From Flavobacteriaceae bacterium (lineage in GTDB: Bacteria; Bacteroidota; Bacteroidia; Flavobacteriales; Flavobacteriaceae), in assembly GCA_013373105.1 (NCBI GenBank), contig JABXIJ010000026.1, positions 62,001-126,000 of the forward strand: a DNA stretch of 64,000 bases, read 5' to 3'. Shown here piece after piece: positions 34,358 through 36,121 of this stretch (position 1 is the stretch's first letter; every line of letters begins with the position of its first letter). The translations under genes and the position numbers were made by a program. Under the pieces are notes generated by a model, which searched no databases, was not told where the DNA came from, and saw only the letters and a list, made by a program, of their open reading frames with translations.

Positions 34358-34987
34358 CTATTTACTTAAATTCGAATTAATACCTTCTAAAGAACCTTCA
34401 GTAATTATTACTTTATTAGCGTTTAATACACCATAAGTATTAATTTCTGAAGCTTTTACAACTTTAGAGTTTTTTAAATTACGAGATGATAAATACACAT
34501 TTGTATTTTCACTTTCTAACACAAATAATGATTTCTTTGTATCTACTTCTAATGCTTTTAATACATCTACGAAGTTTTTTGTTTTTGGAGATTCAAAATT
34601 GAAATCTTCAATTACAACAACATTTTTATCATTTGCTTGAATACTTAAAGCTGACTTTCTAGCTAAACGCTTTAAGTTCTTATTTAACTTAAAAGAATAG
34701 TTTCTTGGTCTTGGTCCAAACATACGTCCTCCACCTCTAAAAACACCAGATTTAATAGATCCTGCTCTAGCAGTACCAGTACCTTTTTGTTTTTTTATCT
34801 TTCTAGTTGAACCAGTAATCTCACTTCTTTCTTTAGATTTGTGAGTTCCTTGACGTTGATTTGCTAAATATTGCTTTACATCTAAATAAATAGCATGGTC
34901 ATTAGGCTCTATACCAAATACATCTTTAGAAAGCTCAACCTTTCTTCCTGTATCTTTTCCTGTTATATCTAAAACTGCTACTTTCAT
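34358..34987 (-). CDS. rplD: 50S ribosomal protein L4
   Basis: A 209-residue uL4. The tunnel loop contains [36 protein letters not shown] and [20 protein letters not shown]. In E. coli L4 also represses the S10 operon through its leader, by attenuation and translation control. Its gene shares one base with rplC, and both lie behind the attenuator-like leader at 35605-35750. Confidence 0.98.
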
Positions 34988-35604
34988 TATTTCTGAATAG
35001 TTACATAAGCGTTTTTGTGTCCAGGAACAGCTCCTTTAACAACAAGTAAGTTCTTTTCAGCAACTACTTTTAACACTCTTAAGTTTTGAACTTTCACTTT
35101 ATCTCCACCCATTCTTCCTGCCATACGCATTCCTTTGAATACTCTTGCAGGGTAAGATGCAGCACCAATTGAACCAGGAGCTCTTAAACGGTTATGCTGA
35201 CCGTGAGTAGCTTGACCTACACCACCAAAACCATGTCGTTTAACAACACCTTGAAAACCTTTACCTTTAGATACACCAGATACATCAACGAATTCGCCTT
35301 CTTCAAAGTGTTCTACAGTAATAGAATCTCCTAGTTTATACTCATTTTCAAATCCTTGGAATTCAACGACTTTCTTTTTGGCAGTTGTACCAGCTTTTTT
35401 AAAGTGGCCATCTAACGCTTTGTTAGAGCTTTTTGCCTTTTTGTCATCGAAACCAAGCTGTAACGCATTGTAGCCGTCAACCTCTTTGGTTCTGACTTGG
35501 GTAACAACGCAAGGACCTGCCTCTATAACAGTACATGGAATATTCTTTCCATTTTCGTCATATAAGCTGGTCATTCCAATTTTTCTTCCTATTAACCCAG
35601 ACAT
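34987..35604 (-). CDS. rplC: 50S ribosomal protein L3
   Basis: A 205-residue uL3, an early assembly protein, and the first gene behind the S10 leader. It starts [19 protein letters not shown] and contains the [20 protein letters not shown] and [17 protein letters not shown] signatures. Its ATG lies about 143 bases from the predicted transcription start. Confidence 0.98.
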
Positions 35605-35750
35605 TTTTAATTATTAATTATTAATTTAATTCTTTAAACAGAGTTGGTTTCTAAAAAAAATCAGCGTAAAAACACTTTCTTACACTGAATTTGTTTTTAC
35701 CGTTTTTCCTTTGCGAAACGCTCTGGACATGTTTATCCCAATTTTTTGGG
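35605..35750 (-). promoter_or_regulatory. rplC (S10 operon) leader with terminator/antiterminator stems
   Basis: Reading the minus strand 5' to 3': a hairpin CCCAA-AAAA-TTGGG (35750-35737); a TCC-AGA-GCG-TTT-CGC-AAA-GGA hairpin; GTAAAAACA (35700-35692); then a 9-bp stem TCAGTGTAA / TTACGCTGA (35688-35661, one G-U pair) followed directly by eight U (35660-35653), a typical intrinsic terminator. TGTTTTTAC (35674-35666), in the loop and 3' arm of that terminator, is exactly complementary to the upstream GTAAAAACA, so terminator and antiterminator cannot form together. This is the layout of an attenuator. L4 control is known for the E. coli S10 leader; the ligand here is unknown. Confidence 0.7.
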
Positions 35751-35753
35751 ACT

Positions 35754-35785
35754 GCAAAAGTATAAATAACTTTCGATTTATCAAA
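35754..35785 (-). promoter_or_regulatory. Promoter of the S10 operon
   Basis: On the minus strand TTTTG ends at 35782, followed by exactly 19 bp and TACTTTTG (35762-35755) plus C. This is the full Bacteroidota consensus. Transcription should begin near 35747, right at the CCCAA hairpin. Confidence 0.75.
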
Positions 35786-35804
35786 ATATAAACCGAAAGT
35801 TATT
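35765..35804 (-). terminator. Hairpin after rpsJ, around the S10 promoter
   Basis: An 11-bp stem AATAACTTTCG / CGAAAGTTATT starts 12 bases after the rpsJ stop. It may end the str transcript, though the T run behind it is poor. Its loop contains the -33 box and one arm abuts the -7 box of the rplC promoter. Confidence 0.4.
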
Positions 35805-35815
35805 CAAATATTTTG

Positions 35816-36121
35816 TTATACTTTTATTTCAACTTCAACTCCACTTGGTAATTCAAGCTTCATTAAGGCATCAATAGTTTTTGATGATGAACTATAAATG
35901 TCTAATAAACGCTTGTAAGCAGCAAGTTGAAATTGCTCTCTAGATTTTTTGTTTACGTGTGGTGAACGTAATACTGTAAAAATCTTTTTATGTGTTGGTA
36001 ATGGTATTGGGCCATTTACAACAGCTCCAGTACTTTTTACCGTCTTTACAATTTTTTCAGCAGATTTATCTACTAAATTGTAATCGTAAGACTTTAACTT
36101 TATTCTAATTTTTTGACTCAT
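35816..36121 (-). CDS. rpsJ: 30S ribosomal protein S10
   Basis: A 101-residue uS10, also the NusG/NusB partner in antitermination. It starts [20 protein letters not shown] and contains [25 protein letters not shown]. It sits 20 bp after fusA, so it belongs to the str transcript, while the S10 genes behind it have their own promoter. Confidence 0.98.

Follow-up and report, generated by a model that had tools for sequence, protein, structure and literature searches.

Organization of the rpsJ-rplC intergenic region

The window, by which we mean the whole stretch of 64,000 nucleotides analyzed here, carries on its minus strand the genes rpsL, rpsG, fusA, rpsJ, rplC, rplD, rplW, rplB, rpsS, rplV, and rpsC, followed by the spc genes, the open reading frames having been named from their translated sequences. 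Because rpsJ (S10) closes the run of str genes upstream, rplC is the first gene, and the operon is not S10-first. Relatives of this rplC were present in 53 of 59 genomes. Downstream of the rpsJ stop (35816) and ahead of the rplC start (35604) lies a putative attenuator, and its parts, with the flanking genes, are listed in the direction of transcription.

35816..36121, minus strand: rpsJ (uS10), open reading frame named from sequence, the gene upstream of the attenuator
35763..35806, minus strand: hairpin ATAACTTTCGGTTTA.../TAAATCGAAAGTTAT behind rpsJ, from a terminator-like scan; it overlaps the promoter and probably terminates the str genes
35755..35786, minus strand: promoter TTTTG-N19-TACTTTTG, seen in the sequence, with a -33 element at 35786-35782 and a -7 element at 35762-35755; of the Bacteroidota type
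35735..35752, minus strand: P1 hairpin GTCCCAA/TTGGGAT, from sequence and folding, with TCCCAA/TTGGGA at 35751-35736
35725..35732, minus strand: 5' strand of the core, ACAUGUCC, with AUGUC invariant in a 65-row alignment
35707..35727, minus strand: P2 hairpin UCC-AGA-GCG-UUU-CGC-AAA-GGA, from covariation in wider sets and a tree; weak on its own
35700..35707, minus strand: 3' strand of the core, AAAAACGG, almost without variation in the 65-row alignment; P2 ends on the first A of this strand
35692..35700, minus strand: antiterminator 5' arm a, GTAAAAACA, seen in the sequence and covarying with a'
35680..35688, minus strand: terminator 5' arm b, TCAGTGTAA, from sequence, terminator-like scan, and covariation
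35666..35674, minus strand: antiterminator 3' arm a', TGTTTTTAC, from sequence, covariation, and folding
35661..35669, minus strand: terminator 3' arm b', TTACGCTGA, from sequence, terminator-like scan, and covariation
35653..35660, minus strand: U8 tract (T8), seen in the sequence; expected 3' end of the terminated RNA
34987..35604, minus strand: rplC (uL3), open reading frame named from sequence, the first gene past the attenuator

A sequence-only reading of this DNA had claimed the TTTTG-N19-TACTTTTG promoter, a 5' CCCAA/TTGGG hairpin, a 9-bp stem running directly into U8, and a stretch upstream of the stem (GTAAAAACA) that is the exact complement of TGTTTTTAC, and all four are found in the sequence where the list places them. 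The promoter follows the Bacteroidota consensus; it is predicted to be active and to yield a leader RNA with its 5' end near 35750. The stem TCAGTGTAA/TTACGCTGA includes one G-U pair, and b' overlaps a' by four bases. The folding energy of the window leader beats that of all 200 dinucleotide shuffles (z -3.6). A 14-kb stretch contained 11 terminator-like sites, versus 4.7 +/- 1.9 in shuffled sequence, and the present terminator is one of the two with the most base pairs.

At 35806-35755, the probable terminator of the rpsJ transcript and the rplC promoter overlap: the loop of the hairpin holds the -33 TTTTG, and its tail holds the -7 element. This layout is common to many relatives in the genus, and by eye the post-rpsJ hairpin has a longer T-run in many same-genus loci.

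A conserved core and an interchangeable hairpin

The most conserved part of the leader, which had gone unnamed in the sequence-only reading, is a core of the form ACAUGUC-P2-AAAAACGG at 35732-35700, which reads ACAUGUCC-AGA-GCG-UUU-CGC-AAA-GGA-AAAACGG in the window. The layout in the family is A[C/A]AUG, P2 (UCC...GGA), AAAAACGG, the segments a-b-a'-b', and a U-tract. In alignment A2, which holds 65 of 66 parsed leaders (L006, truncated at the end of a contig, was left out), AUGUC and the AAA after P2 are invariant, and the remainder of AAAAACGG is nearly so.

The P2 hairpin stacks eight positions. Its commonest form, UCC-NGA-GC / GC-RAN-GGA, contains a tandem G.A mismatch; several lineages have a plain 8-pair helix with a cap that is mostly GANG, and further lineages have UCCC-ACCG-AUG-CGGU-CGC-GGGA. 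On a quick tree of 74 of the 113 leaders, built from 600 bases of fusA-rpsJ and with 35 of its 71 inner branches poorly supported, P2 changes type at least nine times, and in an alignment-free swap test the pairing of its own arms beats that of swapped partners. Counting P2 alone on 38 similar rows gave a weak result, the observed percentage being reached by 11 of 500 shuffles, and support for P2 therefore rests on the wider sets. Comparison of these sequences indicates that the P2 helix is kept while its sequence is swapped out and its flanks stay constant.

Leaders numbered L001-L030 come from the genus of the window, and those above L030 mainly from other genera, with a few loci of the Polaribacter/Tenacibaculum group. 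P1 is a hairpin that ends a few bases before ACAUG, with a mean energy of -10.2 versus -5.7 for shuffled sequence; two or fewer of 40 shuffles were as good in 66 of 113 leaders. The sequence of P1 is not conserved in relatives and the hairpin is sometimes absent. As a universal part of the element P1 was rejected, since no more than 10-12 bases separate the rpsJ stop from the core in 11 of the 83 leaders above L030.

Mutually exclusive terminator and antiterminator helices

The order of the segments, a-b-a'-b', means that a/a' (the antiterminator) and b/b' (the terminator) cannot coexist. Across all helices of A2, 73.5% of pair cells are standard, versus at most 47.9% when the partners are slid by 1-3 columns, and none of 500 shuffles reaches this value. 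Double-changed cells number 130 (59 +/- 7 in shuffles), and 15 pairs show a double change, versus 11.1, a count reached by 5 of 500 shuffles; further pair types in A2 are not above shuffles, 65 of 500 reaching the observed number. The terminator pairs b/b' covary in A2, and the terminator arms change type at least 25 times on the fusA-rpsJ tree. The count for a/a', helix 3 of A2, is 63% of cells, which understates the pairing because arm a is shifted by one column between groups.

In an alignment-free test on 109 of the 113 distinct leaders, the best a/a' helix of a leader's own arms averaged -7.6 kcal/mol (stacking only), versus -6.0 when arms were swapped. None of 2,000 permutations reached the own pairing, and the outcome was the same with 65 distinct loops and with nine representatives of dissimilar clusters. 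Compared with shuffled 5' arms, the means were -7.6 versus -5.1; only 51 of the 109 leaders came individually within 5 of 100 shuffles, because the region is A/U-rich. Four of the 113 leaders (L082, L109, L140, and L145), in which the terminator hairpin had been mis-picked, were dropped from these tests and from folding. A swap test of b/b' is biased, its arms having been picked as a helix, and carries no weight here.

Constrained folding of the 109 leaders gave mean energies of -15.0 for the terminator and -12.3 for the antiterminator. The antiterminator is the more stable fold in 44 of them, comprising 24 of 29 leaders of L001-L030 and 20 of the 80 others. The terminator is clearly stabler on average in the 80 leaders above L030 (-16.8 versus -12.2), and it is stabler in the window leader (-13.4 versus -10.2). 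At the point where a' is just complete, 102 of 109 leaders have a/a' more than half formed. The sequence-only reading had proposed an attenuator with mutually exclusive terminator and antiterminator, and comparison now supports it, with covariation of the terminator, a/a', and P2 pairs. As judged from sequence and folding, an intrinsic terminator stands before the first gene and competes with an exclusive antiterminator, which is the arrangement of a transcription attenuator.

Two further structures were considered and set aside. An H-type pseudoknot of a/a' with b/b' was set aside by reasoning, as only about 0-3 bases separate a' from b', or the two overlap, which is too short to span the a/a' helix. 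AAAAACGG can also pair with the end of b' and the U-tract as an outer helix, with at least six pairs in 96 of 109 leaders, but this is mostly A-U composition, and nothing is drawn from it.

Distribution among the Flavobacteriaceae

Core and terminator are present at all 30 same-genus rplC loci, a set that includes the locus of the window and one locus, L006, truncated at the end of a contig. In other genera of Flavobacteriaceae the element was found at 36 of 40 loci, being missing from L052, L059, L065, and L088, and 20 loci belonging to other families in the order all lacked it. A covariance model, R1 (65 rows, 82 positions), gave 164 matches at E <= 0.1 over 199 Flavobacteriaceae genomes, 160 of them strong (E <= 5e-8) and four at noise level. 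Of the 160 genomes with strong matches, 38 had supplied training rows for R1 and 122 were new; 39 of the 199 had no strong match, and 11 of the 199 had no match to rplC. Conservation of the leader in relatives, a check that the sequence-only reading had called for, is thus seen at both scales. At the 128 matches that were checkable, among 150 listed, the element always lies on the same strand as rplC and 23-134 bases (median 35) upstream of it, and together with the covarying secondary structure this steady position before a ribosomal-protein gene fits a ribosomal leader.

Weak matches, at 25-32 bits or E values of 0.001-0.1, were considered as real copies and taken as noise; they include four of the 164 family matches (G074, G118, G240, and G242) and four in other families. 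Each of the 10 genomes with extra matches, when searched again, had one strong copy (74-90 bits) and otherwise only matches of about 25-32 bits.

At the level of the order, 148 genomes yielded 11 strong matches, all in Flavobacteriaceae and none elsewhere. A core-only model, R2 (38 rows), was built on alignment A4; seven of the 45 rows of A3, short-P2 rows with a misplaced gap, were left out of both, so R2 hardly represents the plain 8-pair type of P2. With that composition, R2 gave three matches in 247 genomes of the class, all in Flavobacteriaceae, and none on 63 leader-less loci. Viral contigs scanned for one pattern of the core gave no hits.

Named loci, partly from the same genomes as the earlier sets, gave strong matches in 41 of 80 cases, among them Tenacibaculum, Polaribacter, Lutibacter, Aquimarina, Winogradskyella, Maribacter, Gramella, Mesonia, and Leeuwenhoekiella. 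Within the family, there was no strong match in ten genomes of genus g147, among the named loci of Nonlabens, or at 12 Flavobacterium-titled loci (one of which, L135, has only 183 bases upstream of rplC). The loci L185-L201, titled as members of other families or of higher groups, also had no strong match. In the samples searched, the element was found to be a conserved RNA family limited to Flavobacteriaceae. The suggestion of a Bacteroidota-specific ribosomal leader is therefore borne out as to a leader conserved before rplC and needs narrowing as to breadth, strong matches being confined to one family and lacking at all 12 named Flavobacterium loci. This absence may explain why the element would be invisible in studies of F. 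johnsoniae or F. psychrophilum, if both lack it. For the family itself, a covariation-supported RNA in about four fifths of the 199 sampled genomes provides a model usable for annotation.

Promoter and operon context

In 110 of 113 leaders, rpsJ lies directly upstream. The gap between rpsJ and the core has a median of 112 bases in the same-genus set and 35 bases in the other 83, and in 62 of these 83 leaders above L030 the rpsJ stop is at most 60 bases from the core. The pattern TTTG-N17-21-TAnnTTTG, which misses other promoter types, occurs in the gap in 18 of 27 same-genus leaders versus 3 of 83 others. Outside the genus of the window the attenuator seems to lie in the middle of one long str-S10-spc transcript rather than in a 5' leader, because a promoter of known type is mostly missing between rpsJ and the core. 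Within the genus of the window, the promoter and terminator would seem to have been added locally. The description of the element as a 5' leader of the S10 operon thus fits that genus, where the promoter pattern is found, and fails for most other genera, where the element sits between rpsJ and rplC without a promoter of known type.

Proposed mechanism and alternatives

We consider it probable that the element is a cis-acting RNA of the Flavobacteriaceae that attenuates transcription of rplC-rplD-rplW-rplB and the genes that follow, with an excess of a downstream-encoded ribosomal protein as the most likely signal. Comparison supports the RNA itself, the two exclusive helices, and their position; that the ligand is a ribosomal protein, which protein it is, and that binding leads to termination rather than antitermination we infer. 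The core, A[C/A]AUG-P2-AAAAACGG, would emerge first from RNA polymerase. Arm a would then pair with a' ahead of the synthesis of b', giving the antiterminator and read-through. If a/a' is disfavored when polymerase reaches b', b/b' would form just before the U-tract and transcription would stop. A ligand binding the core could occupy AAAAACGG and the adjoining a arm and so favor the terminator. Excess ribosomal protein is the usual signal for ribosomal leaders, and the candidate here would be one encoded downstream, uL4 by precedent, with uL3 or another protein of the cluster also possible. Such an attenuator probably keeps the output of ribosomal proteins in step with the needs of the cell, and it gives sharp predictions (a 3' end at the U-tract, named arms) together with a short list of candidate ligands.

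Ribosomal leaders often, though not always, resemble the rRNA site of their ligand. In the 23S and 16S loci of a same-genus genome, R1 and R2 found nothing above chance (best E values of 0.76 and 2.2, respectively), and core words in the 23S locus gave isolated matches only, CAUGUCC and ACAUGUC once each, which we judge to be chance. This failure to find mimicry would suit a ligand other than a repressor ribosomal protein, a reading with the same attenuator anatomy that we regard as unlikely. Its ligand might be uS10 (NusE) with NusB, another RNA-binding protein, or a factor stabilizing the antiterminator of a switch that is off by default. Because the terminator is the stabler fold in the window and in the mean above L030, the default could indeed be termination with an antiterminating ligand, and the stronger terminator of those 80 leaders is what a default-off switch would lead one to expect; a/a', however, can form first (102 of 109), which fits default read-through. 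The short distance from the end of rpsJ to the core (a median of 35 bases in the 83 leaders above L030) speaks for uS10/NusE, while the position before rplC at every checkable match fits the common pattern of ribosomal leaders and speaks against this reading. It is possible, though unlikely, that we are dealing with a new RNA family recognized through the single-stranded A[C/A]AUG and AAAAACGG, held by an interchangeable hairpin rather than copied from rRNA, that splits the str-S10-spc transcript in mid-operon and is possibly sensed by uS10/NusE or a factor favoring the antiterminator. Were this so, the genes from rplC on would be tuned separately from those for S12, S7, EF-G, and S10.

An unregulated partial terminator with stabilizing hairpins, lowering the ratio of S10-cluster to str-cluster mRNA with no ligand at all, strikes us as improbable. 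Plain terminators switch arm types often, as the arms do here (at least 25 changes on the tree), and the variability and occasional absence of P1 fit one too, but a plain terminator has no need of a covarying competing helix or of about 12 nearly invariant unpaired bases around P2. Translation-coupled attenuation, in which the invariant AUG is a start codon and ribosomes on a short open reading frame, or ending rpsJ, set the fold, is in our view very improbable. It would account for the invariance of AUGUC in 65 rows and for the closeness of rpsJ, which stops no more than 60 bases short of the core in 62 of the 83 leaders above L030. No peptide or stop is conserved, however: the stop comes two codons on in 35 of 113 leaders, at 4 to 32 codons in others, and nowhere in the stretch in 13; AAAACGG lies in another frame in 23 of 113; and the base at -3 is A in only 60 of 113. 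A leader peptide was accordingly rejected, neither stop nor frame being conserved. P2, moreover, covaries as a helix, and the promoter pattern between rpsJ and the core in 18 of 27 same-genus leaders argues against coupling to ribosomes on rpsJ.

Relation to known ribosomal leaders

Control of the rplC cluster, which encodes a large part of the ribosome, is to our knowledge little known in Bacteroidota. A ribosomal-protein attenuator is of a known kind. The S10 leader of E. coli precedes rpsJ, unlike the present element, which lies after rpsJ and before rplC. In E. coli, uL4 attenuates the S10 operon, with an intrinsic terminator in a structured leader (PMC10931766); the present element shares the gene cluster and this mode of termination. 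The RNA, as the sequence-only reading maintained, is different: a search of the window with Rfam relaxed to E 10 returned only unrelated families below their cut-offs and no S10/L4 leader. An Rfam search, which that reading had also recommended, found no family of Rfam 15 at the gathering cut-off on the leader in the window and 16 loci, eight of them with the leader.

Closest in position is the L4-Archaeoglobi leader, predicted upstream of rplC-rplD-rplW-rplB by Eckert and Weinberg (2020) and assigned to L4 on prior grounds (PMC7247131); unlike the present element, it is archaeal. Table 1 of that paper has no rplC leader for Flavobacteria or Bacteroidia. The rpsJ motif RLC-47-1 (2024), a candidate ribosomal leader of the S10 gene, differs in belonging to Peptostreptococcaceae and in lying upstream of rpsJ (PMC11109978). 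Transcription attenuation has been predicted or shown for other ribosomal-protein operons, such as the rpsL leader and rplJL (L10), the latter in Bacillus subtilis (PMC2965389, PMC4538822); these are the same type of control on other genes. The S4-Flavobacteria leader (RF03141) is a ribosomal leader family of the same lineage as the present element, with a model of 33 positions, and no such Rfam match falls on the present element. The passages compared from PMC7247131, PMC2965389, PMC2864571, PMC9723704, PMC11109978, and PMC6429828 hold no description of the element. The RNA family is likely, though not certainly, new; supplementary lists of published motifs, such as the 30 ribosomal-leader candidates counted in PMC11109978, may already include it.

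As a separate observation, the Rfam search placed a copy of the S4-Flavobacteria leader in the window, at 24107-24076 on the minus strand (47 bits).

Other leaders upstream of rplC

Several other candidate leaders were noticed before rplC. By eye, one strong hairpin takes the place of the element between rpsJ and rplC in family members without the core (L052, L059, L065, L142, L131, and L172). In Flavobacterium loci L148, L154, L158, and L160, where the present element is missing, a different conserved leader, CACTCCCTGTTTGGAAATTTCTGTTATTTTCAAATTGAAGGGAATTTTAG, stands behind a TANNTTTG element about 80 bases before rplC. Two loci of family f5 of the order (L042 and L043) share a near-identical leader, TTTTAGGGGCGTAGTATGCCTACATCAAACGTAGAAATTACTTCAGACTTCCTGAAAATnGTGATAA, before rplC, to which the leader before rplC in Weeksella (L187) is possibly related. 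Between the terminator and rplC, most of the 30 same-genus loci (L010, for example) have by eye a second conserved module, GAAACAnnnTGTTTC ... TAATAGACGCGCTGGAT ... ATCTATCGTCTA, which is missing from the window, L017, L025, and L030. This module may act on the translation of rplC.
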